From Acarospora socialis (Eukaryota; Ascomycota; Lecanoromycetes; Acarosporales; Acarosporaceae), in assembly GCA_025617375.2 (NCBI GenBank), contig JAMYGW020000008.1:682001-746000 (forward strand): a DNA stretch of 64,000 nt. Reading direction: 5' to 3'. Every line of letters begins with the position of its first letter. Within the stretch, counting starts at the first letter, position 1. The translations under genes were made by a program, and so were the position numbers. Below the pieces are notes generated by a model. The model saw nothing but the letters and a program-made list of their open reading frames with translations. It searched no databases and was not told the DNA's origin. Positions 16,140 through 43,498 of this stretch are shown here, piece after piece.

Positions 16140-16320
16140 AGGAGTTTATCAAGTACTACTTAATATCTTTGCTGTTGAATGCAGATACCAGGCGAAAAGG
16201 GAATCGGCGGATTTGCATGTCCTGGCTTGTTTGTCCTGATAGAGTTACTGCGGCTCAAATAAAGAGAATTTTACTTTTCACAACTGTGTGCTTGCCCCAG
16301 AGTCGGAGGTTTCTATAGTA
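16140..16320. other. 3' region of the CstF-64 gene
   Basis: Non-coding sequence between the stop codon and the MITE. AATAAAG at about 16258-16264 is a possible polyadenylation signal. Confidence 0.4.
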
Positions 16321-16563
16321 CAGTACTAGTCGGTTAGTGTTTACCTGCCCTAAATTGTAGTCCAACAAGTAGATACACTCTACTCTCAATGAATTTCCAC
16401 TGTTTAGATGTCAATAAAAAGAGTGCATAAAATAAAACAGCTTGAGGTCAAGATGATACAACTAAGTCTATAGAATGTTCACGTTAAAGTATGATGTTTT
16501 GGCTGATTTGTTAAAATATGTGTCGTTGATTTGGGATCGGTAAACACTAACCGACCATTACTG
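16321..16563. mobile_element. Tc1/mariner-type MITE with TA target duplication
   Basis: A 243-bp AT-rich segment bounded by inverted repeats. The left end begins cagtactagtcggttagtg and continues to TTTACC; the right end is its reverse complement with about three mismatches over 25 bases. TA dinucleotides at 16319-16320 and 16564-16565 flank it, the target duplication of Tc1/mariner/pogo elements, and the ends start with the CAGT typical of that superfamily. There is no coding capacity, so it is a non-autonomous miniature element. It sits between the CstF-64 and dehydrogenase genes, 3' of the former and 5' of the latter. Confidence 0.82.
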
Positions 16564-16782
16564 TAACTAATCGCAGGCGTGCCTAGTGTGGTTTCAGGCG
16601 GCCAAAGGTAGGCTTCACGCTACCCCGCAAATGACCTTTCCAAAAATAGCAAGCCTCGGCTCCCCCAAGTTGCAGCTCTGGATGATCCCCAACGTCCGCT
16701 TTTCACGTACTTGATCTTCTAATAGGATAGTCTATTAAAATCAATCAGTTGACTGTGTGGGTTGTTTCATAAGATATCAAGA

Positions 16783-17990
16783 ATGCCGATCAGGAACAGC
16801 TGGTTGCCACGCGAAGGTAAGGTCTGCCAACAAGCGTTGTGAGTGCCCAATAATAACCTGCATCCAGGCTTCACTGCTGACGTTGTCGGTCGTGCAACGG
16901 CCAAAACTGTACTAAATCCAGCTGTCACCATTCCATTGTTGCTGTTCCTACGATATACCCACCGAGGTCAATACATGGCCCGAGGCCACGACACAGCAAT
17001 CAGGCGTCTGAAGCTGCTCATCTATCTCGGGCTTGCGCGATGGCTAAATGGTATACTGAACCGAGGGGTCTTGGACAACTGGCAAAGCGATAAATACGAT
17101 TGGAATAAAGAGATAGTGGTTGTCACTGGAGGTAGCGATGGTATCGGAAAGAAAACAGTCATGTTGTTGGCAGAAAGGGGAATCAAAGTCGTAGTGTTGG
17201 ACGTGCAGCCGTTGACTTTCGAAGACGGTAGGTGCTGGCATTCCAGGAGACCTCCCGTAGTATGGACTAACCTCCATTGAAAGCCACTTCGAACGTCCTC
17301 TACTACAAGTGCGACATCACCTCTCCGAAAGCCGTTGCAGCGGCGGCAGCTGAGATTCGCTCGACTGTTGGGCTGCCGACCATCCTAATAAACAATGCAG
17401 GGGCGGCAAGGGGCAAGACCATTCTTGATTCCACGGAGGGGGACGTCCGCTTGACTTTTGACGTCAACACGCTATCGCATTACTGGCTGGTGAAGGAGTT
17501 CCTCCCTCATATGATCAGTCAGAACCACGGTATGGTCGTCACGGTCGCTTCATTGGCCGCCTACGCCACGGCACCACAGATGGTGGACTATGCGGCGTCT
17601 AAAGCTGCAGCACTTACTTTCCATGAGGGTCTAGCGGCAGAGCTGAAAACGCGATACAACGCCCCGAAGGTTCGCACGGTGGTCATCACCCAGGGCTACA
17701 CCAAGACACCGCTGTTCGTGGGCTACAAGAACGATTCCAAGTTCCTGATGCCGACACTGGAGGCCGACACCGTGGCGGAAGCGATCGTGAAAAAGGTGCT
17801 TACGGGTACGAGCGGACAGGTCGTGTTGCCCGGCGCTGCGAACTTCATAGCTCTCAACATCAGATCATGGCCCTTTTGGATGCAGGCGAGGTTGAGGAAC
17901 GACTTGGAGAAGATCATGAGGAATTGGAATGGGAGGCAGGTCCTTGAACCAGAGAAGAGGTATGAACAAGAGACCAAGTCTGAGGATTGA
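16783..17990 (+). CDS. Membrane-anchored short-chain dehydrogenase/reductase
   Basis: NAD(P)-dependent oxidoreductase of the classical SDR fold, most like the RDH10/DHRS (retinol dehydrogenase/17-beta-HSD11) group that sits on the ER or lipid droplets. Three exons, 16783-16816, 16868-17227 and 17284-17990, give 366 residues. The N-terminus has hydrophobic stretches (AVTIPLLLFL, LLIYLGLARW) before the cofactor motif TGGSDGIG at residues ~97-104. NNAG, the catalytic Ser region VASLAAYA and the YAASK motif (Tyr234, Lys238) are present. The start was chosen at 16783 because its tiny exon splices in frame to GFTADVVGRA. The substrate is not predictable. Confidence 0.9.
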
Positions 17991-19226: not shown

Positions 19227-19776
19227 TGTGCCTTTTTGCGGTATGGTTAAATGGAGGTGCTGTGAAAAATAACAGCCTGATGCGTGACAAAAGAAACGGG
19301 CAGAAATATCAATCCAGGCCGAGAGTTAATTCGGGTAGCACCTAAGGGCTTCGGACCCTGGTACCACGTGCTGGTTAGGTAAGGTAGCTTGTTTTGTGTC
19401 TAACTCAGAATAGCCTAGCTTCGCCTGGGGAAATTGAACCAACCCGAGCTGAGCCAGCGCTCGCCCCCAGGTCCCATGTAATAATGTCGTGGCAGGAAAC
19501 TCGACCATGACCAACATGGCGAAAATGTCAGGCCATAATCTGTAATATCTGATTTGAGATGCCATCCGCCATTTAACGACGCTTACGATTTCTCTGTTGA
19601 GATACCCATCGGCATTTGAGACTAAGATGAGCTCTTTACTGATCGCTTGTGAGAACTGCGCTGGCTTAATGTCCAGAACGTCGCGACCAATCGACCAAAG
19701 AGATATTGAACAATTATTCACTGATTGAAGCTCTCATGAACGAGTTTCGCGAACCAATCACATACTACACGTAATC
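19227..19776. other. Intergenic, promoter region of the giant gene
   Basis: A 550-base gap with divergent genes on either side. A minus-strand open frame within it has no supporting features and is not called. Confidence 0.45.
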
Positions 19777-22700
19777 ATGTGGAAGGCGATTATTGGCAAG
19801 TCCTTCGAACGGTCTGAGGCACCCACATCTCAGAGTAGTCGGCGCAAAGACGAAGTCAACAAGTCTGCCTCACGACGTCGGTCTTCTGAATCTATTGTAT
19901 CATCACACTCCGCACGGAAACCGACTCGGGGAGAAGAGCGTGATCGAGGATTCAATCCTAGTTCTACGAGTTACTCTTCCACCTCACGGACGGCATATCC
20001 TGGTACCGCTCCCGCATCGGTGGCATCGAGTTATGCGACGGCCTCGAGTAACCAGGCTGATCAAACGTTCACTCCACCAGGACTGGTGAGGAATGCGAGC
20101 TTGGCTGATAAAATGCCGAAACCAAGAGGCAGCCGGGATGAGCGGAGACGGGATAGCGATCGAGGCCAGAGGGGCGAGAGGAGAGAGCGTTCCACCAGCC
20201 GGGAACGTCGAAGCAATCACAGGGATCGGTCTAGGAGTCGAGACAGGGAAAATAAGAGACCGAATAGAAGAAGGACGTATGATGAACAGCAATCTGGTCA
20301 TGATCTAGCTCGGGGCCTGAGTAGGTCCGGTGACGGCTATGTCGACGATCCGAGCACGGCGAGAGCTGGAGATTATTCGGTTCAGGCCAGCGGGAACTTT
20401 GGCGCTCAGGTCGGAAGTTCGAGCTTTACGCAGTTCCCCGGGCAATATGATGGTGGACTTCCAGCTTTTGTGCCCGAACCTTCGCCTGCGCCGGTAAACA
20501 TGTCTTCACATGTCCCGGATCAATTCCCAGGCCAGTTCCCATCACAAGCTGCTGCACCATACCGTCCGCCGCTGGCTGCGACCGAAGGAGGACCAGGGTT
20601 AGCGGCAGAATACTATGGTGATACTGGTGAATCTGTCGCTCATCAACCAGGCGTGCGACCGCAACCACCAACACTTATTGTGGGCGCAGAGCCTCACCTT
20701 CAGGCCGCATCACCGGTAGCCGCGCCCCCACCTGAGCCGAGTGCAACAGGTAATGTTGGAGCAGCGGCATCGTTCTTCAGCGGTGCTGATGACTACCAAC
20801 CTCTACCGTCCAGCAAGCCGCCGAAAGCTGGGAAGCAGTCGAAGCCAGACAATCCAAACAAACCGAGCAGACCTTCCGGGGCCGCCGTTGTCGCTGGGAG
20901 CGCAGCGTTGGGCTTTACTGCGGCAAACTCGAGCACGTCAACTGCTCATGACGGCCCAGGTGGAACTCCGAGTATGTCATTCGTCCAACAGACCTCAAAT
21001 GCTCCTGCTCGTCCCAGCGTAGACTATCCACCGAGTACCACAGGCCAGGGTCCTAGTCACCCTTCATCGTCAGCACCTGCAGTTCCCACACTTGGAGCTG
21101 CGGCGGCCGGGGCAGCGGCTGCTTACATGATAGGCCATCACTCATCGTCACAACACTCACGGCCTTCAAGGATATCATCTGACGGCTATGCCGGTAGTTA
21201 TGTTACAGCACCGTCGCAACGACCTGAATCGCAACGACCTCATTCACAGGCTCATTCAGCATATGATCCCGTGGTCAGCAACGGGCGACCCGATCGTCCA
21301 GGTAAGCACTCCTCTCACTCTAACGTACCGTTATATGCAGCAGGGTTAGCAGGTACCGCTGGTGCGGCCGCGGCGGCGTACCAATCCCATCACTCTCCTT
21401 CACATAGCTCATACAACCCTCCTTACGCATCAGGATCAATGGCGCAGCGGCATCGCCATCGAGGGCCCTTGAGCAAGCTAATCGACTTTCTAAAAGACCC
21501 TGATGGCGTTGCTGAGTTTGAGGAGTATACCGAGTATATCGGAGTATGTAAACACTGCTTCTCGCCTGGTTCTTCACCTAGAGATGCACCGCGCAAGCAT
21601 CACTACCGGAGACGAGGTTCAAATGAACGCTATGGCAGCAGTACACGCATCGACAAAGAAAGCCGCTACTGGTCTTCTGATAACGAAAGTCGACGGAAAA
21701 CCGGCAGCTCATGGCTGGCAACTGGCATAGCGGGCTATGGCCTGGGGAAGATTGGCAAGTCGTTTTCTCGCGCACCTGAGAATGACTTCGGTGGTCATAG
21801 TGCACGGTCTGGCCGTGGAAATCAATCAAGCTGGTCTTTGGGTAGTCGTACTTCCGAGCATTCAGACAGACGAGGCCACACCTCTTACGGTATTACCGGG
21901 TCACGATATCGGAGCCGATCTAGAGAGCGTGTTGAGACTGGTATCACTAGCGAAGGAAAGCTGTACAAGAAGGATCGACATGGGAGTTTTTTCGGTGGTC
22001 CGACAATGACAACATATGAAGCTCGACGTCGTCGCTCAAGGTCAAGGTCGTCTTCCAGCGATCGTCGCAGCGGAGTTACAGGTGTCGCAATTGGTGCGGT
22101 CATTAGCTCGTCTGTGTCTAATTCAACCGCGCGGCACCGTAATCGATCCCCTGAAAAGGGCCATGCTAAACCAAGACAGAGGAGTGCAGGACAGAGCCCG
22201 TCTTCTGGGCTAAAACATGGCAAAGGAGCATCATACACTAATCACGGTGGCCCTCTCGCGCCAGCTTCTCCGCCGCCAAGACGCAAGAAGAAGTCGAGAG
22301 GTTTCTTCAACTTCAACAACTCCTCTTCGTCGTCTTCTGATGCAGGCTTGGCCTATGGTTCTGCGTTTGAACGGCGGAGGAGTTCTAAGAAATCCACGGC
22401 CAAATGGAACAACCAACGCGACACTGATGCGGCCATTTTGGGTCTAGGTGCCGCCGTAGCAGCCCTCGGAGCTACTGACCATAGCAGTACTAGGCGACGC
22501 ATACGGCGGCCTGATGTGGTAGCTGTCAAGGAACCTCGGAATAAGTACTCGAAAATTCCCGAACTTAGCCGTAAGTCCAGAAGCACGTCGACGTCGTCAA
22601 GTTCAGAGGACGATGTATGGGAAGATGCTTCAGAAGATGGTGACTCCTCAAGTGTTAGTTCGGGGCTTGCGTATGGAAGAGAAGTACGTAAGAGTCAGGA

Positions 22701-25700
22701 GTCACTGCTCGCTGAAGCTTCTGGCACCAGCAAATGGGGCTGGCGTTGGGGCAGTGCCAAGAAGAAAAAAGGTCCTGCGTATCCTGTCAGCAATGTCGGT
22801 CGAATAACGGCTCCAGCTAGTGCTGGATTGGGTGGCATGGGTGCTCATCTTAATGGTGAAGCAGCGGCTTTCGACAACCGAAGGGATGGCGCAATGAGCA
22901 GCGCTAGCAGTCTACCTTCAATGCAACATGTGTACCCAGTACCTACCTCAGATCCGTCTAGGTTTGATGTCAGCAGGCAAAGCTCGACAATGTCGTCCAA
23001 CTACCCGATTGTGACATCACGACCTGCCGCTATCCCATTGCAGCAGCCTCAACCAATAGCGCCAGTGTCGTCGGCTATCTACACGACTCAAGCACCATAT
23101 GCTCATTCTTATAGTGCTCCGACTGGTCCTCCTGTCTTCTCAGGAGTAGCTCAAGCGCGACCTACAGTGACTGACATCCAGCAAGCTCGCACGACCAGCT
23201 CTCCTGATAGGACCATGCCCGGCACCTTTCCATTTCAGCAAAGCGAACTTGAAAGGCTGCCAAAAGAAGCCAGCAGTGGCAGGTCTCATCGCCGACGAGA
23301 TTCGTCTCCAGCTCCACGCACCGAAGTCGTCGAGCCCACCTCGAGCAGTAGAAGGAAGCGAGCTTCAACTCAAGTCCGAGGATCAAGTGCACGCGTTGAC
23401 GATGCCAAGGAGCAGGCTGACAAGGAGCGGCGCAACCGACGCCGTCAGGAGGAAGAAGATGAATCCAACCGTCAACGGGTATTGCTGCGTGAAGAGAAGG
23501 ACCGCGAGGAACGCGAGAAGCAACGCATGCGGCGGCTGAAGGAGGAAGACGATGAAGCCAATCGACAGCGGGCAGTGATGCGTGAGCAGAAAGACCGCGA
23601 CGATCGCGAGAAGCAGCGCAAGCGGCGGCTGAAGGACGAAGAGGATGCTGAGCAGGAGCGTTTTCGGCTTGACGCGTTCAAGAAGCAAAGCGATCGGCAT
23701 AATCGAGATAAGCAGCGCATACCAGCGAGAGAAGAGTTCACTCAGGAGCAGGTATCTCCCCACAGATTAGAGGAGCAGAATGCCACCGGGAAAGACCGAC
23801 AACCACTTGTCGGAACCAAGCGCGGCGGTATCTTGCGTTCGGAGACTCAGCCCCCTAATGATCACGAAAGAGCTTCAGATGAATCGAAGAACTTGGCCTC
23901 CTGGGCGACTCCGGCTGTGATTGGAGCTGCTGGAGCAGTGATAGTTGCCACTGCTACGGAAAGGAAGGCGTCGAGTGCTGAAGACTCTTCGGCAAAGCGC
24001 CGTAACGAGCAACGGAGTAGCAGAGACAGTGTTGAGAATGATAGTGGTAAGTTGAAGAGTAGCTGGCGGCAGTCGGCTTCACAAGCCAGCGACGATCTTC
24101 CGGATCAAGAAACGCAGGTTGCTCGTAAGGTGGCCCCGAAGGCTGCTCCCAGCTCCCGTCATGAAGACTACGCCACATACTTTGCACCAATCGAGCTACT
24201 TGCCCGATTTGGAAACCAGCAGCAAGGTTACGATCCCGACAGAGATGATGAAGGTGCCTCATATCAGACCCCGCGTATCATCACTATTGAACCCTCCGGT
24301 CGAAAATCTCCCTGCTATTCTCCGGCTGATGCTTTCAATGAACCTCCATATGGGCGTGACTCTAACCGCGTTCCACTGCCTTGGGTAGTGCCTGCGTTGA
24401 ATCTCATCAAGCCAACACCACCGCACAGCATTGCCGGGTCGTCCAAAGGTGATGCGTCACCTGTAATGCGCCCCGAGGATGCGACAATTGCTGAGATCAA
24501 CCAGCCTGCGAAACCGCCGACTGCCTCAAAGGTGACTTGGGGTGAACCCGAAACAGTGGAATATACTGTTGTCACTCCGCTAGAGTCGCGTGAGGAATTT
24601 ATCTCGAATCCAAGTATACCGCCTACCCTAGAAGAGGTCATGGAAGTGGTTACTATAGCGCCTTCTGTGGCTCCAGCAATGGCTGGTAATGCAATCCACG
24701 ATCCGATCGTCCTCGTCGATGAGGTAAAAGTAAGGCACATGCCAGGAGAATTTGGAGACGACCTGGAATTTGCTGCTACTTTGGCAGCAGGCCTCCAAGA
24801 CACAGGCTTTGACCCTGCGATTGTCATCGATGACCCTACATATCGGCGACGCGACTCACCCCCCGGATCTGAGTCGACCAATTCCTATCGCCAACCATTC
24901 TTCGAGACCGTAACAGATCTAGGTCTTGACTCCCCAGGCACCGAAGGAGCTCCACCGCAGAGAGGCTTTATTGAAGGTGAATTGCCAAGTACACCTCAGG
25001 ATGAGGATGTCCCCGCTGCGCTGGGTGACTTTGATATTCCCTCAAAGAAGCTCAAGAAGAAAGAGAAGCGGAGACAGAAACAAGCGGCAAAGGGTCTTGA
25101 GATGAATGGTTTCTCTACAACGGGCAGCAGTCTATCTCAGCCAACAACGAAAGATGAGATACTCAAAGAAACTTATAGATATTCCGAGGAGCCTGAGTCG
25201 ATGGTTTCAATACCTAGCGATCCAAGTGATGATCTGGTTGGGCCAGCAAATCCTAACAGGCTAGAGAGAGATCATTCAATGGGGCAAGCTGGACGAGACA
25301 AGATCACCGGCCCACGTTCAGTATCTCGCTCGCGCACTGATCCGCAAGGGTATTTCGATGATCGTCAAACCATACCAAGGTTACCCATACACAAAACTAT
25401 ACAAGATGATCGGATCACGGATCTTGCAGCCAGTGTACCTTTGCCTGAAGACACGCCTGACGATCTAAGTTCATCAAAGGGCCCAAGTCTGGATGATTTC
25501 AACGACGACCGAGCTGATACGAATAAGGCACGGACTCCAATAGCGAGACACAATGTTGCGCCAGCGGGATTTCCGGATGCTGAGGGCATAAGTCCAGAGA
25601 CTTCTTCTGACCTTACCCACAAGTTAGAGGAAATCGGGTCTAGAACCGACCCCAGACAAAGCAGTCATGATGACTCGCCCAATAGATACGCTAAATCCCC

Positions 25701-28700
25701 AACACGCTTCATGCCGGAAACGCAAGAGGATGAAGAGCAGGGCCAGCGCAAAAAAAAGTCTAAGCGAGCCAACGAACAGGATGAATGGTCCGATAGAGAG
25801 TCAAAATCTGTCTCTGCTCTGACAGCGGAACCTGACGAGTCTCAGAAGCCTCGAAAGAGCAGGAAGAAGTCAAAGCGCGACAGTGTTGGCTTTGACGATG
25901 CAGTATCTGCCGCATCAGCTCCCGCAGCTATCGAAGATGACAAGGCGTCGAGGAACAAGAACAAGAAGGGCGGTCTCTTCGGTTTGTTCAGTTCTAGTAA
26001 ATCTTATGAGGACGCACCCGCAGCTAGAAAGCCGCCTTCTGAAGCTACGGTGGAGGACTTCCAAGAACCGAAGAAGTCAAGGAGGAAGTCGAAAGACAAA
26101 AGAAGCTCCTCTGGGGACGTGTACGATGTGTTCGGTGCCGCCGCCCAGTCTGTGGGCGATTTATCCCAGATTGGACAGCCTAGAGAAGATAGTAAGGATA
26201 GAAAGTCGCACAAGTCAAGGGATAAGGAGGAAAGGCGACGCAGCCGCAAGGAAAGCACCGTCGACTCAGGTATTACTACCCAAGATCTACCTTCTAAGGT
26301 ACATATGCCAGGCTCTATTGGTATTCTTCTAGCTAGTAGAGAGGTAATTGCTGACGATCCTTAAGGATGAACATCGCACGAGTTCTACAGATGAGACACG
26401 ACAGAGCACACCCCTAGGCGACCGATCATCAACGAGAGCTGAGGGTCAGGACAATATGGTGTCTTTTTTAGAGGTAGGCAATGATATGCCGTCAGTACCT
26501 GACGGTATTGAGCCAGCCTCATCGACACGAACTCGGGAAGATCCAAGTCAAGCTACACAGCCAGCACCCAATTTCCGGACTACCTTTAGCGAACCCTCTC
26601 CTCCTGCCTTGGTCGGCACCTCATCTCTGCATAGCCCTGATCTCGCCGAGCCTGTGAGTAAAGTACCGCAAGATGCTCCTATCTCCCCTACCTTGGCACC
26701 TACGCCTCAAGAACAGCAAGTACCAGTATTGCAACACTCTGATTATATACCTGTCCCTCCCGCCGCTCCGTCCCCAACAGCTATTCCTATACACTTTCGA
26801 ACGCCTCGGCCTTCGCCCGGCTTCGTGCGTCCGCACGCCTTGTCGTCACCTGCAACGGCTTTGGATAGTCCATCGAGTGTCGTTCCTAGGACCCGACACG
26901 CCCGACCTGGTTCTACTGAGTTCAGGCCTCTTTGGCTTGTGGAACGTCACAAATCAAGGGAGCAGTTTGACCCAGAGGAGCCGTATCCGTCATTACCCTC
27001 AAGTAAAACCACGTCAAGAAGCTCATCAGTACACGGGACTGAAGGTGTAGACGCGAATGATGAGATGATCTTAGGTTCTGGCAACGGTAGTCTCGTACTT
27101 GGCGTCGATGTTGAACATTCTTCAGAACCTCAGGACTTTCTGGATTCGCAGCAGCCAACGCCTGTCGCGACCACTTTTCCTCCAGCAGTACAACAGGAGG
27201 AGAGTTCGGAGAAAGACCTACACAGCCTTTCGGACCCTGAACACAACCGCGACTCCCACGGCAACAGACCCAATAACTTAGCTTCCGCTCCTTCGTCCCC
27301 GCCACTCCGATCTCGTGGAGACGCAATCAGTGAGTTACCGGACAATGTCTTGCCTGCTCATTTTGAAGAATTGCAAAATCTTCCTCCGTTACCTCCGAGC
27401 AGCAACTCATCAAGTTATGGTGATGATGAGCTGCTCTCGTCCTCGGCAATCAAGGATGCAGCGGTTGCAATGGGTACATTGGTAGGAGACGCTACTACTG
27501 CGCTACTTGGTCGAGACCGAAGCGACGAACAGACCTCGTTACCCTCTGATCCACGTGAAAACATCTCTGATCCAAGTGGCAACATCCACTCCCCAAGAGA
27601 TATTGTACAGCCTATGGATCCTGCTGAATCTCAGGGAAAGATCATTGAGTCCGAAATGGAGCCTGGCTTACCGGCAGCCGATAAGCCATTGGAAGGACCA
27701 TATTGGCAGGCAGTACTCATGACTAGCATTCCTGATCAAGGCGTCACTGTCGATGAAACGCTTACAGACTCGACCTTCCCAACACAAGCCGCTAATTTGG
27801 CCTTCGCTGAAGAACAGCGCGAACTAGAAGAGCAAGATGCTCAAGACGCGGTCGATTCCGGGTTCGCTCCGTCAACCTCCCAAAAAGCGAAGAAGGAAAA
27901 GCAGAGTAAGAGACAGAAAAAGCGAAGCATATTCAATAATGAGGGTGCATCCAAAGCATCGCCTTCTGCATCTACATCTTCCTCAGGGCTTAAGGGGTCA
28001 CCAACTGCAGCCGCTGAAGCTCTGACGGAAGAGCAGGATAATTTTGCGCTACCAGAAGGCCTGAGCCGGAGCCGAAGCCAAAGCGACCAGAAGGAGTTCA
28101 GTCCAACAACCGTGGTACCCATACACCGTGAACCTGAGCAGGACGAAAATGAAGCCCAAAATTTTCCTACGCTGCAGTCCGTTGAGGAAGATGCCGAATG
28201 GCCTGAGCGCAATCGTAAATCAAAGAAAGGTAAAGGCAAGAATGGAGATATTAAAAAATCGAAGCTCCCCACTAAACCAGTCGAAACCGTACCTTCAAAT
28301 AGGGAATACGATCCTCAGCTGGCGCCGGAGTCTTCTGGAGATCAGAAAGAAGCTGATTCCAAGGTTACGGGGGGTGGTGAACACGACCGACTGGGTGAAA
28401 AGCCACGGGCTCTCGAGGATGCCGAAAACCCTGATCTTACACCTCAAGATAAGTCCTCTGTTGCATTGCCATCCGTGATTCCTATAGAGCCTAAGGCTGT
28501 TTCCGAACATGCCCTACCAAGCAAGAAGTCCAAGAAGGACAAGAGAAAGTCGAAGCAAACACGGCAGGCTGAACCAGCGATAGAACCTACTTCAAAAGAT
28601 CTGATACCTGGTATAGAGATAGGTGCTGTCAACGACGGATCGGAACTGGTGCGAACCTTATCCCAATCAGAGCAACGTGAGAGCGAAGCAATGCCATCTA

Positions 28701-31700
28701 TGTCAAGCAGTGACCATGTCAGCGAAACCACGAGTGACCCTGTGTTAGCCCCAGAACTTTTGCTACCTGTGAAGCGCAATGGCAAAGCAAAGAAGAAGCA
28801 TAAGCTGGACTTGCGAGTTGAACGTGCGTTATCGCTCGGTGATAGCACCACTGCTGCGGAAGAGGATACTCCAACACAGCTAGGGTTGGAACCGGTATCC
28901 ACGGCTCCAGAACAAAGCATAGCTGCAGATGAAATGGAGCATACCGCGCCATTGCTAGAGCCCGAGTCTACGATAGAGGTGACAGAAACTGCATCCGGGT
29001 CTTCTGCTGCCCCGGACGAGTCAACGCAGCAAGATCTACACTCAGGACACGCGTCCGCCATCCCAGCTAAGGAAATTACACAGAGCAACGTGCAAGAATT
29101 GTCCCCGTTAATCTCAGCATATCCACACCCTGATGATGCTCCATCCACGCCACCACTGGAAGTGGAACTTCTCCGACCCCTATCACCTGCTATGATTCCT
29201 TTGCCGGAAGATGAGGACCCAGGCTTAGATGATGGCACCACAGACAAAGAGCTTCCGCAAGAGGCTGACGTCAGTCACGTCACGCCTAGCTCGGAGGTAG
29301 GAAAGGAAAATGTGTTTCAAGCGAACGATCGCGCACCAGGGCTAGAGTCAACAACTCAGAGTTCTTCCACACAGTTGGCACCTCAAATGGTTCCCTTGCC
29401 TCCAGACGCGGACGAAGAGCTCGATCGCTCATCAGCACTCAAGCCCTCAAGCGATACTCCAGAAGCCTTCCCGATAGAAGAAGAAAGTCGTCTAGTGTAT
29501 GTGGCGCCCGAAAGGATTCCTTTGCCCTCAGATGTAGGGCTCGGTTCCTCTCCGACACTGGGGCCATCAGATCAGACTCCTGGCGGCTTCCCGACAGAAG
29601 AGGATCCTTCTGTACAGGAGCTACCTGAAATGGTTCCTTTGCCTCCAGATGAGGACTTAGAGCTTTTCTCCTCTCCACCACTGAAGCCTTTGGATGAAAC
29701 TCCCGGTGCCTTTCCTACAGAAGAGATACCATCGGTAAAGGAGGCGCTTGGAAACGTTCCTACGCCTTCAGCTGATGACAGAGAATTCAACAGCTCTCCA
29801 ACACTGAAGCCTTTAGATGAGACTCCTGGCGCGTTCCCAACAAAAGAAATGCCCGCAATACTCGAAGGGCCTGAAATGGTTCCTTCGTTTTCAGATGAGG
29901 ATATTGAAATTGATCGCTCACCAACTCTGAAACCTTCAACTGAAACTCCGGGCTCTTTCCCTACAGAACAGAGTACTTCCGCACAGACTCCTTCGCCTTC
30001 GGACGAGGAGGACGTGGAGCTCAATCGTTCAGCAACGCTAAAGCCCTTGAGCGACACACCTGGGGCCTTCCCAACAGTCCAGAGCCCTCCAATACGGGCG
30101 GCACCTGAAGTGAAATCCCTGCTTGGAGACAGGGGCATTGATCTCATGGTTATATCGGATGATCACAAGACGCCATCAGAGATCGCAGCAAGGGTATCTG
30201 ACCAGACCAACGTTATGTCAGCTGTTGCATCAGTGAACGACAAAAACATGCGTCAGATTGATGGTATGTTGACTTCAATGCCTTTAAAAGACGATTTACC
30301 TGGAGCTTTCCCGACAAAGCATGATACCCCAGTCCAGGTGTTGGTACCGGAAATGGTTCCTTTGCCTCTAGATGATGGTGAAAGTCAACCCGACTCACTT
30401 AATTATAACACGTCTCGGTCTGAAGCCGACGATGTCTCTCCGGGTTCGCGACTTGAAGACACCGGCCACACGGGACAAGAGGATGATACATCAAGAGCTC
30501 CTGCACCGGATGCTGAATTACCAGGCGCCTACCCGACAGAACAGAATCCCTCGGTAGAAGTCAAACCTGATCACGTACCTTTACCTCGCGATGAGAACAT
30601 GGATCTGTATAACCCACATGTTGATGAGGAGTCCTCTGATACCAACCGCGATGCTGAAAGGATACAACGAAAACTGAGCTCCTCAGTGCTAGCGACACCA
30701 GCTGTTGAACTCCCAGGTGCTTTCCCAACTGAGCGAAGCACAACGGTACAAGCGTCACCGGGATACTTTCCCTCATCTCCAAACGAGCGTGTGGATCTAC
30801 GTAATCAACAGGATGAGCTTCAGTCTTTTGAGTATCCCAGAACCGGCGGTGATAATTATAACGACGGTATGCGACGACAAGCAAGCTCGTCAGCAATGGC
30901 AACACCAGCCGTTGAACTGCCAGGCGCTTTTCCAGCTGGGCAGAGCCTGTTGGTAGAAGAAATCCCTCGAGACATCCGACTCCCCCCAAAGAAGGCTGTG
31001 GGTCTTCGGGACCAACATGATGATCTTCAGTCTTCAGAGTATTCTAAGACTGGTGAGGATAACTATAACGACGGTGTACGACCGCAAGCAGATTTGGTAG
31101 GCTTAGCAACACCAGCCGTTGAACTACCAGGAGCTTTTCCAGCGGAGAAAGGGACATCAATACAGGTTTCACCAACAGACATTCCCTTGCCTCCAGACGA
31201 GAACATGGATGTTTATAATCTACTGGGTGACGACCAAAGCTTACCCACGCCGGCTATTGAAGTCCCGGGTGCATTTCCAGCAGAACAAGGAACATCATTG
31301 CACATCTCACCTGAAGACATTCCGTTGCCTCCTGATGAGGACATGGACGTGTACCTTCCACTGGAAGAAGATCAATACGTGGCCACACCAGCTATTGACC
31401 TCCCTGGTGCCTTTCCAGGCGACTTGGGTTCCAGTTTGATTCCTACAACTGAGACTGGCGCTTTGCCGAAGGTTTCAAAATCACAGTCACAGAGTACCAT
31501 CGACGATGAGCAGAGCCAGAAGAACATAAGTGCAGAGGGTGGCAATATGCACAGTGACTTGCCTATGCCAAAGGTGTCTTCAGAGGGGCAAATATCCTCC
31601 AAACCGATTATCTTGCCAGTTCTGAAGAGTCTTATCTCCGCTGTCTCGACTTCCGCCCAAACCGAGCAAAGTTCTTCCGCAACTGCTCCAGAGTCTATTT

Positions 31701-34700
31701 CTCTGCCAGACAACTCAGATGTGGACCTGGACGACACAGTCAATGATAGTTTAGCTTCAATGGAGTCTACTCACCGCGGTGACGCTGTCAGTGCCGCCGA
31801 ACAAGGCCTACAAGTCCTGGATGAAAGAGTCATTGAGCAGAAAACTACCTTTTCATCAGCGTCGATAAAGCCGGGCACGGAGGAGTTGGGATCTATTAGC
31901 AGTGAACAAGGTCCGAAGAGGAGTTCATTGTCAACATCAGCTCTTCCGCCATACGATGTGACCGACAAAGCCTTGTTACCTGAAGCGATACCGTTGCCGG
32001 AAACAACTACTCCTACCCCTCAAAATGCTACTGAGTACCCTCTGCCAGAAGATATTGACCTTGGAAATGCTGTAAGTGGATGTTCTCGTTCGACAGCCAA
32101 TGTGGGCCTGGATGCCGAATCCGCAACATCGATACCTCTTCCGCCAAATGCAGACCTTGAGCTCCTGTCACCTGTGATGTGTCCTCTGCCTGAAAGCGCG
32201 GATACTGTACATCCACTAGCTCAAAATACTGCTTTAGGAAATGCAGTGGACATCGAGTCACCGCCTTCTACAATGCTGCCTCAGCAGCAAGACCCAGAAC
32301 CGGAAACCCTATCACGTGAATCAGGCTCCCTGCCAGCGATATCACACTCTGGAATCAATGCCACCAAGACGATGCTCGATCCAGAGGGTACTGACTATGG
32401 ATCACTAGCCCCTGGCAGGGTTCCTTCGCCCTACGATGCCCACTCGAACTTAGGGGAATCTTCATTGGGTGCAGCGCCAAAACCGACTACTGAGGATATC
32501 AAGCTGGAAACCGAGGCTAATGTTGAGGAAGCAATGCCCACTGAGAGTAGTACTGAAACTCACGAATATGCTGCCAGTAGGTCCGGCGAGGACAAGCTCC
32601 TAAGCGAACAACCTGAGGAGGTAGCGGCGAACGAGTATCTTGTCCCATCGCGTAGGAAGGGCAAGAAATTCAAGAAGCAGCAGAAAGCCCCCGCCTATAT
32701 CGAAGACGAATCACCAGGAGACTTTACTGAAGAACCACGGTCAATGCGTGAAGTCAAACTCCAGGCTCTACCTGACACTACACCCGGTGAGATCAGCGAA
32801 CCCAGAGCCGTCTTAGCAAATATGAATCAGGCCAGCAAGGAGCCAAATCGACAGGAACATAGTACAGCCTTCGATACAGAAATTCCGTTTGATGCCGAGG
32901 TACCGCGACTTACCAAGAAGGGCAAGAAGAACAGGAAAAACAAAACCTTGCCATCTCCTTCTGCAACGCAAACCACGCTTATAACGCCCAGCAACCTAGA
33001 TATGATACCGCATATACCTCGCGACTCTGAATCGTCTACGATTGAGGTTCCCGAGTCAGTAGAAGTGCCTCAACCGAGCGATGGCAGCCCTCGAGAATTT
33101 CAAAGTAGTCCATCAGCGCCGTCTGAGGGACCCTTGGGACGGCCACTCGATGTGATGCAGAGTTTGCTTGGCCTGCCAACAAAGGGTCGGAGCAAGAAAG
33201 GGAAGAGAGACAAATACTTACAAGATCCTGAGTCGAGCTCAGGTGTTTCAGAGGAGCCTGTAGCGTCAGCGGAAACTAATGCCGAGGGCGACCAAGGCTT
33301 TGGGACAAAGCAGTCTAAGAAAAGCAAGAAAGGCAAGAGGAAGGGCAAAGTCGATATATCTACAAGCACAGAGGATGGTACGGCAGATGCGATCAACAAA
33401 GGTTTGCCAGCTACGTCACATCTCATCGCAGTCGAGAATCCTACAATGACCGAAGATCGACGACCATCTACCGCGGTTGAAAGACCCGAAAACGAACCTG
33501 ATACAGTTACTGAACCGCCATTCGAGGGCAGCGTTCAGCAGAGCATGTTGACACCTTCGCTGTACGATTCTGCTGTCGTCGCTGAAGACGTAGAGGGAAA
33601 GGTGAACGTCAAATCCAAACCTCGGGCATCTGACTCGGACTATCTCCATGAGGCCGTTGAATCTCAGCTACCTCCAGATGATCCAGCTGACTTTCCTGTC
33701 GAGGAACAAGACAGAGAACCCGAAGCTGAACCTTACGAGCCATCCTTCATTCATAGAAAGAGCACGAAAGCTAAGAAGAATTCCAAAAAGAACCAAGCTA
33801 CCCTTCAGGATGAGCAGCCCGCGTCTGTGGCTGTTCCAGATATAGCCTACCAGCACTCCACGGCTGGTACCAGTCGGCGAGTCACAAACACAGAACCGGA
33901 AGTCATTTTCCAACCCTACCATGCCCCGCTTCCTGTGCCATCCGTTGGAGAGCCCAAGGACCTTCCTTACCTGCCTTCTAACGAAGTTCCTACAGATTCT
34001 TTCACGCCCTCAGGACCACCCGAAGCTGTCATCACACCAATGGAGGGAGCAGAAGATCTTTTGCTTCAAACTTTGGACACTAAAAAAGGTCAAGTTCTGA
34101 ACCAACCCCCTGTAATAGCGACTGAACCCTCTGTCGGAAGCGAACTGCTGAAGCCCGAACAGACCATGTCTGTTGAAAATATGCAACAGCAGCTCACCGT
34201 AGAGCTGACTGAGCCTCACAACCCGGATGCAAGGCATCCAAGCGATGCTCAGAACTCCACCACGATTCCATCAGTTCTGGACGGTCAGCCTCTTGCGGGC
34301 AGCGAGTTGCCCAGGGCAACCATCGAGGAAACTGACTTCGATAAGGAGCAACCAAGTGACCTTCAAGAGTCCACCGCCGCCAACGAGACGCCTACTGCCA
34401 GCGACTTGGAGCTCGCAGCACTCGAAGGGGCCCTTCTCAAGTCCAACGAGAGTCCTGTGGTGTATCTTGAAGAGCAGTCTGCGCTCAGAAGTCAAGCTAA
34501 CACTGAGCCTGTAAACAGCCAACAAGAAGACGATTCGTGGATCGCCGGAACTAGCACAAAAGCGAAGAAGGGTAGAAAGCGGCAGAATGGACGTCTGGTA
34601 TCTACACAACTTGAAGAAACGAAGGAGAAAGCCTCTGATCCGTATGAGTATCGTGAGAGGTCTTCCGCCTTATCAAAGCCTTCCCATGAGCGCAACAGGT

Positions 34701-37700
34701 CTGGCGAAGAAGGCGTAAGCACACCAACTGGCTATGATGCGGTGCATGAGCCCTCGCCAGTAGAATGTGCAGAGCCGCAAGCTCCTAAAATGGATGAAAA
34801 CCTAGGAAGTCAAGCACTCGATGACAACGGGTTTGAAGCAGCTGTCTCGCGTTCACTGGGTGGGAACTCCTCAGACGTTGTGCTCGATATGAATGCTGTG
34901 TCCCATACCACGCCTGAGACGATCAAGGAGTCTGTGGTCTCGGGTACAGCTGGTGTTCAGACATTGACAGAAGAAAATCCGGCCGAGCCAATTGGGAAGG
35001 AGACTGACGCACAAGAAGATGAGTGGCTGGGCGAGTTTACTACCAAAGCTAAGAACAAGAAAGGGAAGAAGCAGCGCCGGATTGGTTCTTCTCTGCTTGC
35101 TTCTGAGTTTACAAAAGATGCCAGTAGTTCATCTACCTCTACAGAGAAACCTCATAGTGGATCGATCAGCCCAAACCAGCGGACATTACCACGGCAGGTC
35201 GAAGCGCCAATGCAGAGTGATACTGCAATCGTCTCCTTACCAGATGCTCCAGTTGCTTCTGCAGTGGAGAAGCCTAGCCTGCCAGGCCAGGATGATGAGT
35301 TTTTGAGCTATACATCGACCAAGAAAGGAAAGAAAGGCAAGAAATCAAAGAAGCAGCCGGCTCATCCTGCCTGGTACGATGAAACAGCCGGAAGCGGAAC
35401 TAGCACGCCGGCAGAAGCTCAAGCAGCACGCTCTGAGCCACCTGAAGCTGAGATCTCTCGAGACAAAGTCGAAGATGCTCATACAGAACCGCCAGCAGAT
35501 ATCCATGCGCTACCCGAACGGTCCGACGTTGTTTCAAGGTACCCCGATGAGTTCATGGAGATTCCGGGCGCGGCTGAGGCAGAAAGCGTGTTGGCTCCCG
35601 CGTCTAAGAAAAAGGGGAAAAAGGGGAAGAGGTTATGGAAGCAAGGTCAAGGCTATGGGGAAGATGGCGGTCTTACACCCGAGGTCTTGCCCGAGCCTGC
35701 CGAGACCCCTCTCGATACTGCAGGAGGTGGTGCTACAACTGTCCTGGGAACGGAAGATGAAAGCCCCAGAGGCGACTTAACACTTGATGATATACCAGCC
35801 CTACCATCTAGCAGACCAGAGTCTCGCATGGGCGAAACAGCTCAAATAGCACGGACTGAAGATGACCTGCTCCGAGACCAGGCAGTGGCCGAACCTCTGC
35901 CAGCTAGTAGACCGACTTCCCCGACTGCTTTAGATCTCGAATATGGCGACCACACAAAGCTTCAAGATGGACATCTAGGAGACGAGATATCGCCTACGAA
36001 CGTCCCGCCGCTCCCCCAAATGAGACCGGATTCGCCCGTTATGACTGGACCTGGAATCCTTCCTCAAGCTCAGCTGCACGAGAGAGATACTGTTTCCGAG
36101 ATCCCTGAGGATATTCAGCCCGAGCTTACACCTCGGGGATTAAGTTCACAGCTTGACAGATCGTCCGAACAACTTGCTCTTTCCCAGGAAAAATTAGCTT
36201 CGACCGAGTCTAGCGAGCCGATACAAAGTCACGGCTTCCCGGACTCATTTCGATACCTTGGTAGTCAGGACACTCCTAATACAGAAGGCATCAAGACTTC
36301 CAACGCGGACGAGTATAAGGATAGCAGTCACTTCGACAAAACACCAAGACCTCTTCGTGATGCTACCCTATGCTTAACCACCACGGAAACATCACAGCAA
36401 GAGCCCGCAAAAGAAAAGTCGAAGAGAGAGAAGAGGAAGAACAAGAAGCAAAAGAAGACGTTCGACTGGATAGAGCCAGAGGAGAGAAATACAACACAAT
36501 CAACGCCTCTTGACTCAGACAAAGAGCTGGAATCCCATAACGAACAGATCAACCTGCCTTCAACGATTTCAGCTTTCCGTGGTCCTGAAGCAGAGCAGAC
36601 CCAACAACTCGACATACAGTCGGAATATATGATGAACCAAGACTCCTCTATTGTCCCCGTTCCGGAGCATGCTGTAGAACAGCGCATCCGTACACCGGAA
36701 AAGGTCCTGCGTGCATCACAGCTCAACAGAGACAGTGCGGTACATGTCTCGGACTCTCCGCTACTTCCTCATATAGTCCCAATGCACAACCCTGTGCGAG
36801 ACAGTGGATACCAGGACAGCGCGGCGAGTCCAATGGCACATTCAACGCATGAATTCGCCACTGGGTCTGAGCTCCAGTCACCACTACAGTATATCAGGCG
36901 TTTCCCTTCGCCAGATCGGCCTCTCACGCATCCGGATGACTCTCACTTGACTGGGAATTTCGCTCCAATGGACGGAGGTCCGGGGCTTGAGTCTGACCCG
37001 AATTCAGGGAGTTCACTACGAATATCAGTGGAACATGACCCAGTGTACGAAGTTACTGTATCAAAGCATCCGATAGATATGCCCAGGTCTCCAATCAGTT
37101 CTGTTGGGTCTGTCAACCGCAATCGCGCCATGCCGGACAACACGATTGAATCCAATGATACGGAACATCTCAGTGACCAACCAAGAGAACGCGACTCTGT
37201 TTTTTTACCTCAGCATGATCAACAACAGCCATCACCAGTAGAGTCCGCGACAAAAGATAGATCTTCAGTACTATTCCTTTCTTCACCCTCAACTAGGGAA
37301 GATTCGATAGAACACCTTATTACCCAGTCGCCTTGGCAAGCTATCTATGGACCTGCGGAAAAGGAATCTCAAAGAAGTGCTATGGACGGGACTGAAAGCA
37401 GGGATGGAGACGTTGAGATCAGGAGACTTGCTCACGGTTCTCCTGAGCTATCGCTACCTCAAGCAGCTGCGGCAGAGCGGGTCCCGAATACGGCATCGTC
37501 ACATGCTTTATCACATGTCTCCGAAACTCCAAGCACGTCGCTCTTTGGTGGTCCGGTAGGCATCAATAGCGACAACCCATTCGAAGGATCTCTGCCACCA
37601 GCTTCTTTAGGCTTCAACGGTTCTGAAAGAACGCCTCTTGACACTATCGCTGAACATAGCCCTGAAGACTCGCCACTTCTGAAGAAAAGTCGCGCTCTTT

Positions 37701-39970
37701 CTGATACCGGGTCACCTGAGCGCGGAATCAAGTCGATGAAACGCTCCCCAACACCTCGATCTCACGGACATGATGAGCTGCAGTCACCTCCAGCCCTAGG
37801 CCGAAGCATTACACCTACTTTGCAACAACATGCATCTCCCCCAGATAACGGTATTCTCTCTACGGACGACTTCATCGCGAGACTTTCCTGGCCCGCAGTG
37901 GACGAGGAAAATCACTCCGTAGACCTCGACAGAGTCAAGAGTCGAAATACTGACCGTCGTACCTCGACTCATAGCAATAGCTCTGCGAGAGTGAAGGACG
38001 GTGAGATTAGATCCACAAGTGGCCAAAGCATACGATCGGGTGCTAGCATCAACCGTTTCAAGACACCCGATAGAGACCAGATTGTTCGGCCTGCGAGCGG
38101 CGTCAGTAATAGATCTGCCTCAGGCACTCCACCATTGCGCCGAGTCGACCGAAGGCTTAGCGGGGATTTAAGAGCCGCAAACAAACGAAGCGAAGCTAAG
38201 TTTCTCGCTAAGCAGCCTGACCTTGGCTTCGACGTGGACCCGCATATTCCGTCCTCATCAACGTACGATCCCATCAAAGACAAAGGCAAAGGCCGAGTCA
38301 GAGGAATGACCGATGTCTATGTAAGTTATATGTCCTTTCAAGTCTTAGTCACTTAAACAATTGCTCGGGTGCGTGACTGACTTGGTGATCGCTTGCAGGA
38401 GGGATGGGGTGATGTACCAGGGTCACCGCTTTCGCCGACGCGACCGCCCAGCATTCGGCGACGTCAGAGCATACAAATCATCGATCTCGAAACGAAACTA
38501 GATCAACTCGCTTCAGAGAATCGACTACTTCAGGATGCAAAATCAAAAGCCGAGAGAGGGATCCAAGAGTTAGAGTATGCGCACAATCGCAATGAGAACG
38601 CGGCAAAAGAAGCTTTGGAAACTCGCGATCTTCACCTACGCGGAAAGGACTCCGAAATCCTCAAGTTGCGCGAGACTCTAGAATGGGTACAGAAGGAGGT
38701 GGTCAGACTTACAGAAGTCAATGAAAGTCTTACCGCGACAAATCTTAGCCTCTCGTCAAACCAGGACCATCGCTACAGTCAATTGCAGCTCGAACACGAG
38801 ACAACCAAGCAGCAATGGCAACAATCAGCAAGAGAGTTAGAGGAAATGCGGCAACAGCATGTTCATCTGTCCACGGGCATGGAAGATATCGTGCAGCACG
38901 AGATCAGCATCGCTCTTGAGGACAAGAATGCTGAAGTGAGAAGGTTACGCGACGAATTGGAAGCGGCCAAAGATCAAATACGGGCGCTTCAGCAACAGAT
39001 CCTTGCATCAAAGCCAAGTGATGATCTACTCATCACACGTGACGAAGACTACTTCGACAGTCAATGCCAGCAGCTTTGTCAGCATGTACAGCAATGGGTG
39101 ATGAGGTTCTCGAAGTTCTCCGACTCGAAGGCTTGTCGCCTCACGAGTGAGGTCACCGACGAGAAGATCACGGACCGTTTCGATAATGCCATTCTAGATG
39201 GATCTGATGTGGATAATTACCTAGCCGACCGCAAGAGGAGAAGAGATGTCTTCATGTCTGTGGTCATGACAATGGTCTGGGAGTTCATCTTCACCAGATA
39301 TCTGTTTGGTATGGATCGCGAACAACGTCAGAAGCTCAAGTCGTTGGAGAAGTTGTTGGGCGAAGTTGGCCCGATAAAGGCGGTCCATCGGTGGCGAGCT
39401 ACCACACTGATGCTCCTTTCCAGGAGACAAGCCTTCCAAGTGCAACGGGCTCAGGATACCGAGGCGGTGGTGCAGGAAATTTTTCAAACGCTTTCGACGT
39501 TTTTGCCGCCTCCGTCTCAATACGTCAAGCAAGCGAAAGTGTCATTGAGGCTGGTGATGAAGTGTGCGGTGGACTTATCGATCGAAATGCGGACACAGCG
39601 GGCAGAGTATATTATGCTTCCCCCTCTTCAGCCTGAATACGACACAAACGGCGATTTGGTTCGAAAAGTCTACTTCAATGCGGCAGTGATGAATGAGCGC
39701 AGTGGTAACACCAGCTCCAACGAGGAGCTCGAGGCCCAGCATGCCGTGGTGAGGATAGTCCTCTTTCCTTTGGTGGTGAAGAAGGGGGATGACGCTGGGG
39801 TGGGGAATGAAGAGATTGTGGTTTGCCCGGCGCAGGTGCTCGTGGCCAAGACTGGCAAGGAGAAGAAGGTCGTTCGGGTGCTGAGCGGGGATAGGATGTC
39901 TGTAGATCAGGCCACCAAGTCGGTTTTGAGCTTCGCTCCATCGAGCATGGATATGGGCAACATGATATGA
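19777..39970 (+). CDS. Giant 6,682-residue repetitive protein, leashin (LAH)-like / 'involucrin repeat' protein
   Basis: Three exons, 19777-26298, 26366-38320 and 38399-39970, join in phase 0 to one frame; the middle exon is 11,955 bases without a stop. Residues 1-~190 are Ser/Arg-rich; a compact conserved-looking block KLIDFLKDPDGVAEFEEYTE...CKHCF lies near residue 570. Residues ~1221-1315 are a charged helix of three 31-33 residue repeats. The middle is disordered, acidic and punctuated by a dozen or more Lys-rich cassettes of the KKGKKGKK kind, with a PGAFPTE/PLPPDE repeat array at ~3200-3865. Exon 3 encodes a long coiled coil (~6182-6365) and a globular C-terminal domain with VMTMVWEFIFTRYLFGMDREQ. 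Size and layout match the Pezizomycotina tether LAH, which links Woronin bodies to the septum or cell cortex; annotation pipelines often name such genes 'involucrin repeat'. The gene model is firm, the LAH assignment is inference. Confidence 0.8.
23437..23721 (+). repeat. Three 93-99 bp repeats encoding charged helix, in giant gene
   Basis: In-frame tandem units of 31, 31 and 33 residues begin RRRQEEEDESN, RRLKEEDDEAN and RRLKDEEDAEQ and mostly end REKQR or RDKQR. The coded product is a very charged single alpha-helix or coiled coil. Confidence 0.85.
29380..31440 (+). repeat. PGAFPTE / PLPPDE repeat array in giant gene
   Basis: About 15 degenerate units of roughly 40-65 residues, each containing a PGAFPTE-like box followed by a VPLPPDED-like box and a variable acidic spacer. 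Early units read KPLDETPGAFPTEE; later ones ATPAVELPGAFPAEQ. Divergence between units argues for old duplications held in frame. Confidence 0.85.
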
Positions 39971-40628: not shown

Positions 40629-43498
40629 ATGGCAGCTCCACGTCCGGGAAATGATCAGATAACGCACCAGGAAGCCAATTCATCGACCAGTCAGTCTGGA
40701 TCACAGCAGCCAATTGAAGCTCAAAATGCCAGCACCGCAGCACCTACAGACCAGGGCGAGCAGCCAGCAGCCTCCCGTCGAAAGCGCACCCATCGTGGCG
40801 GAAAGAAAAAGCGCAATCGACGACAATCATTCGCTGCACCCTCAGATACTACTACTGTTGCTGACCCGGCGAGGTCAAATCATGACCTGCTGGATGTGCC
40901 GAGTTCCTCCACTGCGCGACCACCTTTCTACAGACTTGGGCAGTCTGGAGGGAGGAATTTGAGCAGTACGAGTCTAGATAGCCAGGCGTTGCTAGATCAT
41001 CGGTATGGCTACTGCACCTGCGATCTCAATCGTGGCTGTGAAGAGTTTTGCTGATACTAGGACTCTCAAAGTGATCATCGGCCAATGCGTGCTCGTCGAG
41101 AAAGTAGAAACACTCCAAATACTTTCGGTAGTCGCCCTGGCCCATCAACGCACGACAGCAATACCACACCACGTCCGACATACACAAACCCCTTCGTCTC
41201 CAATGAGAGCGCACGTCGCCGGCCACGAGTATACAGAACCCATCGGTCATCTGGTGGCGAAAGTGAGGAGGACGATGAGGTTCCCGATGACCGCACGCCG
41301 TTGATGTCGTCGGGCTACGGCGGGCTTGGAGCTCAAGGCAGAGGTAATCGCCCGGACACACAAGGGCGTAGGCCTTCGACGGCTACGTCGAGGTCGAGTC
41401 AACATCGGAGACAAGGACCGATACGGGAACACTCTCATTCAGGAGACCCACAGCAAGACTACGATGTCAATAATCCTCCGTCGGTGCCTAATAGTCCTCA
41501 GCTTGGCCCGGAGATGGGCTATGATGATGTACTCGTCACTGGGTCATTCGGTCCGTCGAGGTCCTTGGAAGATAGACGAGCAACCGCTCCTGTACTTAGT
41601 GACCACATCGTCAACATTGATCATGCCCCGGGCGCAGATCAAACCTATGGCAACTCATCTCCGCCCACACCACGGATGCTGCCTGGCGATCAAAGAAGGA
41701 GAACGGTGGCGCTCCAAGCCCAAGAAGACGTTTGCTTTCCCATCGAGGGAATGTCAGAAATGGCAGAGGATGACTACATGCATCAGGATCAAGGCAGTGT
41801 TCGGGGGGGTACACGAAGAAGAAGAAGCATGAGATGGCCAGACCTGTCCGTACTGGAAGAATGGAGCCGCGAAGAGAAGGAGGTGAGAAGTGAAGGCATT
41901 CGGGCAAAGAAAATCAGTGAGCCTGTATTGGTAGGTGGTCGACTACGCCCGCAGAAGAATGGCTGGCATCGAACCGAGGAGGACGCACCATACCGCTTCA
42001 CATATTTCAACGAGGAGTTTCAGAGCACGATTCACAGCCAGACAATCTCTGAATTACTTCAACCGGGTCAGGATTTTAAGGAATTGTTTATCCCGGATCC
42101 CCCCGAGTTGAGTGATTATTCGTCCGATGAGGATGATGACCAGGAAACGGTGGATGAGCGGCAGGAACTAAGCCCAAGTGGCGGTTCCAAAGCTGGAACT
42201 CGACATTCCTCAATCATCGGAGATGCAAAGCCCCATACACGAGAGCCAACAGGCGATGCCAACGAAATTGCACAATCTCAGCAACCGAAAGAGAGACCTA
42301 AGCGTTATGGACCGCGCCCAACCTTTTGGCTAGATGTACTATCCCCGACCGACACGGAGATGAGAGTCATATCCAAAACTTTTGGGATTCACCCTTTGAC
42401 CGCTGAAGACATTATGGTACAAGAGGCTCGAGAGAAAGTAGAGCTTTTCCGAAACTATTATTTCGTCAACTACCGGACATTCGAGCAAGACATGAACAGT
42501 GAAGACTACCTCGAACCGGTCAATATGTACGTTGTTGTATTTCGAGAAGGCGTCATAAGCTTCCATTTCTCAATGACACCACATCCGGCCAACGTCCGCC
42601 GCCGGATCCGTCAACTGAAAGACTATTTAATTCTCAGCTCCGATTGGATCTCGTACGCCATCATAGACGACATCACCGACGTCTTCGCCCCCCTCATCCA
42701 ATCCATCGAAGAAGAAGTGGATGACATCGATGCCGCCATCCTACAGCTTCACGACGCTGACAACGTCGACACCAGCAAAGAAAAGTCAAAGTCAAAAGAC
42801 AACGAGAAGAAGTCTGAGTCGAATGACAACGGTGCCGGAGAGTCCGGCGGCGACATGCTCCGGCGCGTCGGCGAAGCCAGGAAGAAAGTTATGGGCCTCT
42901 ACCGGCTTCTCGGCAACAAAGCCGACGTGATCAAGGGCTTCGCCAAGCGCTGCAACCAGCAATGGGAAGTCGCCCCCCGGAGCGAGATTGGTCTTTACCT
43001 TGGCGACATCCAGGACCATATCTTGACCATGACGAGTAATCTCAGCCACTACGAAACGTACGTTTCCTGTCCCTTTCCCATTTTCCTCCCCTCCCACTTT
43101 CTCAATCCGCTATCGCCAGCTTGCTAACGTAGTCATGACGGTGCATGTAGGCTCCTTTCCCGCGCCCACTCCAATTACCTAGCCCAAATCAATATCCGCA
43201 TGAACGAGCGGCAGGAACAGACTGCCGACGTCCTGGGCAAACTGACGGTTCTAGGCACGATTGTTTTGCCGATGAACATCATTACGGGCATGTGGGGTAT
43301 GAACGTCGAAGTGCCGGGTCAGAAGGTCGACAACTCGATCTGGTTCTGGTCGAGTAAGTTGATCTTTCTCCTCTCGTAGCTGCCGGTTAGTGGTGAGACG
43401 GGATGACTGACGCATCTGAGTAAACAGTCAGTGCGGGATTACTCGTCTTCGGGATATCGTGCTTTTTCATCGCGAAGAGGGTCTATGGGATTGTGTGA
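40629..43498 (+). CDS. CorA/Mnr2-type magnesium transporter
   Basis: Divalent-cation channel of the CorA-MIT superfamily, closest in layout to fungal Mnr2/Alr proteins that move Mg2+ across the vacuolar or plasma membrane. Four exons, 40629-41002, 41072-43057, 43151-43353 and 43428-43498, give 877 residues. The first ~400 residues are a disordered Ser/Arg/Pro-rich cytosolic tail. The CorA core starts near FWLDVLSPTDTEMRVISKTF and continues HPLTAEDIMVQEAREKVELF, followed by the long stalk helix. The end carries TM1 (LGTIVLPMNIITG), the diagnostic GMN in GMWGMNVEVPGQ (~residue 835), and TM2 (SAGLLVFGISCFFIAKRVYG). A Lys/Ser/Asp-rich insert interrupts the helical domain near KEKSKSKDNEKKSES. Confidence 0.94.

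Follow-up and report, generated by a model that had tools for sequence, protein, structure and literature searches.

In this work, we analysed a 64,000-nucleotide stretch of the Acarospora socialis genome (assembly GCA_025617375.2, contig JAMYGW020000008.1, positions 682,001 to 746,000 of the forward strand; hereafter the window), and we suggest that the giant gene at its positions 19777-39970 is very probably the leashin (lah) orthologue of this member of the Pezizomycotina, unsplit as in Aspergillus. Leashin fastens Woronin bodies, the organelles that plug septal pores, to the hyphal cross-walls. The gene is an ordinary new example of a known family, and no new system; it adds a well-bounded leashin gene from another Pezizomycotina genome, in which the C-terminal anchor, where it was compared, hardly varies around the membrane segment; the linker differs, yet keeps one acidic repeat motif. 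This raises a testable question, namely whether the linker is just a spacer or, as a repeated docking site, governs Woronin body release upon hyphal wounding.

The gene is made up of the following parts:

19777..26298, + strand: exon 1, residues 1-2174, rich in Ser, Arg, and Ala, and mostly basic over roughly the first 1,250 residues; presumed to face the Woronin body
26299..26365, + strand: intron 1, 67 nt, phase 0, AAG/GTACAT ... CTTAAG/GAT, with GCTGAC 5' of the acceptor
26366..38320, + strand: exon 2, residues 2175-6159, long acidic linker, Ser/Pro/Glu-rich
38321..38398, + strand: intron 2, 78 nt, phase 0, GTAAGT...TTGCAG
38399..39970, + strand: exon 3, residues 6160-6682 and stop; predicted septum-anchoring C-terminal part of leashin

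The C-terminal part and the Lah protein of Aspergillus fumigatus

The evidence that carries this identification comes from exon 3. As a reference we used the peptides obtained by translating the lah primers printed for A. fumigatus (PMC5345055), which fall at six distinct places; the comparison with exon 3 covers five of these sites, 43 residues in total. The five peptides are found on exon 3 in the same order, and 34 of the 43 residues are identical, versus a mean of 2.46 and a maximum of 9 in 2,000 shuffles of exon 3:

EGWGESP (A. fumigatus), EGWGDVP (here): 5/7, first codons of exon 3; distance to the C-terminus 509 versus 523 residues
FSKHSDH (A. fumigatus), FSKFSDS (here): 5/7; distance to the C-terminus 288 versus 287 residues
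IFMSVVMTMV (A. fumigatus), VFMSVVMTMV (here): 9/10 with the wild-type V5303/V5304 given in the text of PMC5345055; transmembrane (TM) segment
MDREQRQKLK in both: 10/10, joined from two overlapping primers; distance to the C-terminus 219 versus 219 residues
STMDISNVI (A. fumigatus), SSMDMGNMI (here): 5/9; last nine residues in both

In a six-frame control on the window, with 121,286 positions for each of the two 10-mers, the best matches reached 4/10 and 5/10. The EGWG peptide begins exactly at exon 3, which suggests, without showing it, a conserved intron position.

The architecture of this part agrees with that of A. fumigatus Lah, for which a coiled coil before the TM region and 219 residues after it have been described (PMC5345055). 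The corresponding features here are:

38450..39013, + strand: predicted coiled coil, residues 6177-6364, the longest proline-free run in the protein
39248..39310, + strand: predicted membrane-spanning segment VFMSVVMTMVWEFIFTRYLFG, residues 6443-6463, matching the position of the A. fumigatus Lah TM region
39311..39967, + strand: C-terminal domain of 219 residues, 6464-6682; A. fumigatus Lah likewise has 219 residues past the TM region

The heptad score of residues 6190-6368 was 0.432 (null 0.258 +/- 0.036), a value that none of 300 shuffles reached; the predicted coiled coil lies upstream of the TM segment, as in leashins. Residues 6444-6462 are the sole strong membrane segment among all 6,682 (Wimley-White octanol sum -9.0, the next being -1.3), and the 21-residue segment 6443-6463 leaves exactly 219 residues to the C-terminus; the TM segment followed by a 219-residue domain, which characterizes leashin, is found here as far as the five primer sites allow the comparison. 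Some caution is due about the published topology, since the segment contains one Glu and one Arg and may either truly span the membrane or be a buried helix. A single-sequence structure model of the last 298 residues had a mean predicted local distance difference test (pLDDT) value of 37.7 and was set aside.

The reading as leashin, which the initial annotation had proposed, is supported by exon 3, which at the five primer sites agrees with A. fumigatus Lah in the residues themselves, in their order, and in their spacing; the TM and coiled-coil positions match as well. The likeness comprises the C-terminal coiled coil, the identical FMSVVMTMV in the TM segment followed directly by MDREQRQKLK, the 219-residue stretch up to the C-terminus, FSKxSD lying 287/288 residues from it, and EGWG, which stands at the start of exon 3 here. 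The A. fumigatus protein differs in being about 1,100 residues shorter (about 5,540 residues, as derived from V5303 and the spacing) and in its linker peptide AIAEFDE, which has no match here. It corresponds to AFUA_2G08060, a locus that carries the annotation "involucrin repeat protein" and has been connected with the tethering of Woronin bodies (PMC8227032), and its 288-residue C-terminal domain is reported to be well conserved with Neurospora crassa LAH-2 (PMC5345055). The length of 6,682 residues lies within the published LAH predictions of 5,936-7,480 (10,821 in N. crassa; PMC2690989).

The genome (31.1 Mb in 38 contigs) also encodes HEX1, the Woronin body matrix protein (G000:C13:79959-80159; E 9e-102 to the Woronin body major protein hexA of the PDB), and the two co-occur here, as expected for leashin in Pezizomycotina. 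The HEX1 frame (L006, 823-1725) is one of two eIF-5a matches and ends in the peroxisomal signal SRL; its core scores much alike against seven PDB sequences, too evenly to point to a taxonomic class. HEX, WSC, and leashin are described as specific to Pezizomycotina (PMC2690989; PMC10023807) and are reported to be absent from Neolecta (PMC5309816).

The search for further relatives gave little. The exon-3 domain was found only once in the genome, and from 75 genome-contig and 8 viral-contig pattern matches no relative of the C-terminal domain was confirmed, as expected for non-fungal collections. Pfam gave no family at cut-off on any of the three exons and listed nothing for exons 1 and 2; the four families that appeared on exon 3 with an E value of 1 or less stayed under their curated cut-offs (the best being PTS_2-RNA, 19.2 versus 26 bits) and were taken as chance.

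The linker and the proposed mechanism

The net charge over residues 701-6100 is -270; Ser makes up 12.4%, Pro 10.3%, and Glu 8.8%, and Pro, Glu, Leu, and Ser together reach 38%. This agrees with the LAH linkers, which are acidic, rich in the same four residues, and not conserved in sequence (PMC2690989); an acidic, repeat-bearing P/E/L/S-rich linker is therefore found here too, though less acidic than that of N. crassa. The repeats are concentrated in one region:

29195..32173, + strand: degenerate repeat region, residues 3118-4110, with PLPPDEDLDL-like and PGAFPT-type motifs

In N. crassa, the R1 repeat has the core LPVDEDLDLLPALPES in 18 repeats, and R2/R3 the core PEEVELPASP (PMC2690989). 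Scanning with the first nine letters of the R1 core, at a threshold score of 23, we found 10 sites scoring at least 23, versus a mean of 0.58 and a maximum of 3 in 300 local shuffles; nine of the ten fall inside residues 3118-4110 and one at 5554, the top ones being LPPDEDLEL at 3266 and LPPDEDMDV at 3828. The PGAFPT-type motif, whose pattern was defined after viewing the sequence and to which one site was added by eye, occurs in 13 copies at residues 3205-3859 (29456-31420), spaced 40, 41, 41, 41, and 37 residues apart and then 46-80. When the protein was compared with itself by BLASTP (E 1e-3), no repeats were listed; the degenerate ones are visible by motif scans only. With respect to N. 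crassa leashin, the acidic P/E/L/S-rich linker and the R1-like motifs are shared, whereas the motifs are fewer and degenerate here and the protein is shorter (6,682 versus 10,821 residues) and less acidic. The presence of an R1-like motif in a second fungus may be new, if modestly so: a literature search for papers containing at least two of four relevant terms found PMC2690989 alone, and earlier notice elsewhere is possible.

As for the way in which the protein might work, its N-terminal part would bind the Woronin body, with either WSC, the membrane protein that has this role in N. crassa, or another protein as receptor; the acidic, low-complexity, and probably disordered linker of about 5,500 residues might behave as a soft spring; and the coiled coil would permit Lah-Lah association. 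Both the binding partners and the localisation of the protein are what we infer from its resemblance to known leashins. The chain in front of the membrane segment (6,443 residues) has an expected coil size of about 96 nm by a scaling law, which is close to, and in line with, the 100-200 nm cited for the distance from Woronin body to septum or pore (PMC2690989). According to the same paper, such a linker may be compared with the PEVK region of vertebrate titin, in that it would work like that Pro- and acid-rich elastic linker; the analogy differs from a relationship, as homology is not indicated and exons 1 and 2 have no Pfam match.

It is also conceivable, although we hold this idea to be rather doubtful, that the linker is no passive spring but a series of binding or release sites, in which an acidic PLPPDED[L/M]D-type motif shared with R1 stands beside the PGAFPT motif spaced by about 40 residues, and that, together with this, N-terminal Ala/Gly segments adhere to one another or to the membrane of the organelle. 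Seven such hydrophobic segments, without any D, E, K, R, or P, all lie in residues 322-1394, with none elsewhere in the protein, whereas the locally shuffled protein gave a mean of 0.51 and a maximum of 3 in 100 shuffles; their definition was chosen after viewing the hydropathy list. The features of the N-terminal part are:

20740..23958, + strand: Ala/Gly-rich segment region, residues 322-1394, seven segments
21466..21816, + strand: block around residue 570 (residues 564-680), holding the sole CxxC of exon 1 (C591, C594)

Contact with the Woronin body would be expected at these Ala/Gly segments and the CxxC block; in N. crassa, LAH residues 1-344 bind via WSC (PMC2690989). A second copy of the N-terminal block was not found in the genome. 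Of 29 pattern matches to this block in the genome-contig collection, one, on a bacterial contig (L014), was confirmed and then rejected as a chance hit, as it crosses stop codons.

A number of points weigh against reading the gene as leashin. The TM peptide matches at only 7/10 when the mutation primer is taken as printed, and the peptides matching at 5/7, 5/7, and 5/9 reach a level that chance also gives elsewhere in the window; since the EGWG, FSK, and STMD peptides are singly non-significant, it is their position that gives them weight. The sixth peptide, AIAEFDE, which lies in the A. fumigatus linker 1,044 residues from the end, is unmatched: its best match is 4/7 and out of place, and chance reaches 5/7 elsewhere in the window. 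The charge of the whole protein is -249, versus -1088 in N. crassa LAH, and a charge-hydropathy test called 65 of 330 whole-protein windows "folded", many of them beyond the C-terminal domain, so that disorder of the linker is likely, not proven. As to the PEEVELPASP core, its single best site was equalled in 208 of 300 shuffles, and the enrichment appears at lower scores only (14 sites at a score of at least 22, four of them overlapping R1-like sites, versus a mean of 4.95, none of the 300 shuffles reaching 14). Five Mpv17/PMP22 family matches in the genome are candidates for WSC, which could not be singled out among them. Finally, a direct tethering role of WscA has been called unlikely in A. 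fumigatus (PMC5345055), which makes the WSC step doubtful for the Aspergillus form.

Gene model and alternative explanations

The initial annotation had placed at 19777-39970 a gene of three exons joining in phase 0, with a product of 6,682 residues and a middle exon of nearly 12 kb of open frame, and all of this was borne out by splicing out 26299-26365 and 38321-38398. Indeed, the stop-to-stop frames on the + strand run from 19729 to 26364, from 26348 to 38356, and from 38381 to 39970; the exons of 6,522, 11,955, and 1,572 nt are each divisible by 3, the junctions being in phase 0, and the spliced 20,049 nt encode 6,682 residues (about 725 kDa) with a single stop, at the end. Exon 2 has 3,985 open codons, and its frame is not due to chance, since the probability at the local base composition is about 10^-77. 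G+C content differs among codon positions in every 334-codon window of the frame; the pattern drifts along the gene (G+C at second positions equals or exceeds that at first positions in the first ~1,000 codons, and that at third positions rises in exon 3), which makes it a weak test for hidden introns. The splice signals of intron 2 are strong. Intron 1 as drawn is the most plausible among several in-phase candidates, and alternatives exist.

This choice of intron 1 bears on a first alternative, that is, that the 5' part of the gene model is wrong, with one or more extra short upstream exons or another intron 1, so that residues 1-340 would not be the true Woronin-body-binding end. Several in-phase choices of intron 1 speak for it, as does a short open frame just before the ATG:

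19736..19774, + strand: upstream open frame of 12 codons and stop, read from the sequence, ending 2 bases before the leashin ATG

We nevertheless consider this alternative unlikely, given that the chosen intron 1 has a fair donor and the branch-like GCTGAC, and that in the genomic sequence 19777 looks like the natural start, being the first ATG of a frame whose nearest 5' in-frame stop is at 19726 and whose next ATG comes only at 20113. The 12-codon frame may damp translation of the giant protein.

According to a second alternative, the locus would be divided in the way known from Neurospora: early termination and an internal promoter would yield two proteins, a LAH-1-like Woronin body tether from its 5' part and a LAH-2-like septal or tip scaffold from its 3' part. 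The N. crassa locus (LAH-1/LAH-2, NCU02793) was likewise first predicted as one gene of 10,821 residues and was later found to comprise two transcription units (PMC2690989), and an open frame alone is therefore no proof of a single transcript. However, N. crassa LAH-1 ends in an alternative exon of 2,607 bp (PMC2690989), which has no counterpart here, as the locus holds no other + strand frame of at least 220 codons besides the three exons, and the split is treated as a derived trait of Neurospora and its relatives (PMC2690989). Such a two-protein locus appears quite improbable to us. The fused, Aspergillus-like arrangement suggested in the initial annotation is supported by the one open frame ending in the septum-anchoring domain; the unsplit form would be the simplest reading of the locus, with a single transcript presumed.

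Lastly, it is extremely improbable that the product is a giant disordered scaffold of another kind (of the Spitzenkoerper, of the septal SPA type, or of the cytoskeleton), unrelated to leashin and like it in size and composition only: size and composition are by themselves unspecific, and N. crassa LAH-2 is itself a Spitzenkoerper scaffold (PMC7275032), but the exon-3 match to A. fumigatus Lah is specific in sequence, order, and spacing and largely refutes this explanation, and Pfam yields no family at cut-off.

Other features of the window

ARAGORN found no tRNA in the window, and no Rfam family reached its gathering score there. At 60861-62467, long frames of 514 and 504 codons overlap on opposite strands; neither of them matches a Pfam family at E 0.001. 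By Pfam, the neighbours at 15210-17990 and 41061-43127 are a CstF2-like RNA 3'-end processing factor and a short-chain dehydrogenase, with a CorA-like Mg2+ transporter downstream, and the region 50065-58086 encodes a DUF4419 protein, a protein with a HET heterokaryon-incompatibility domain (52597-53763), and an aspartyl protease.

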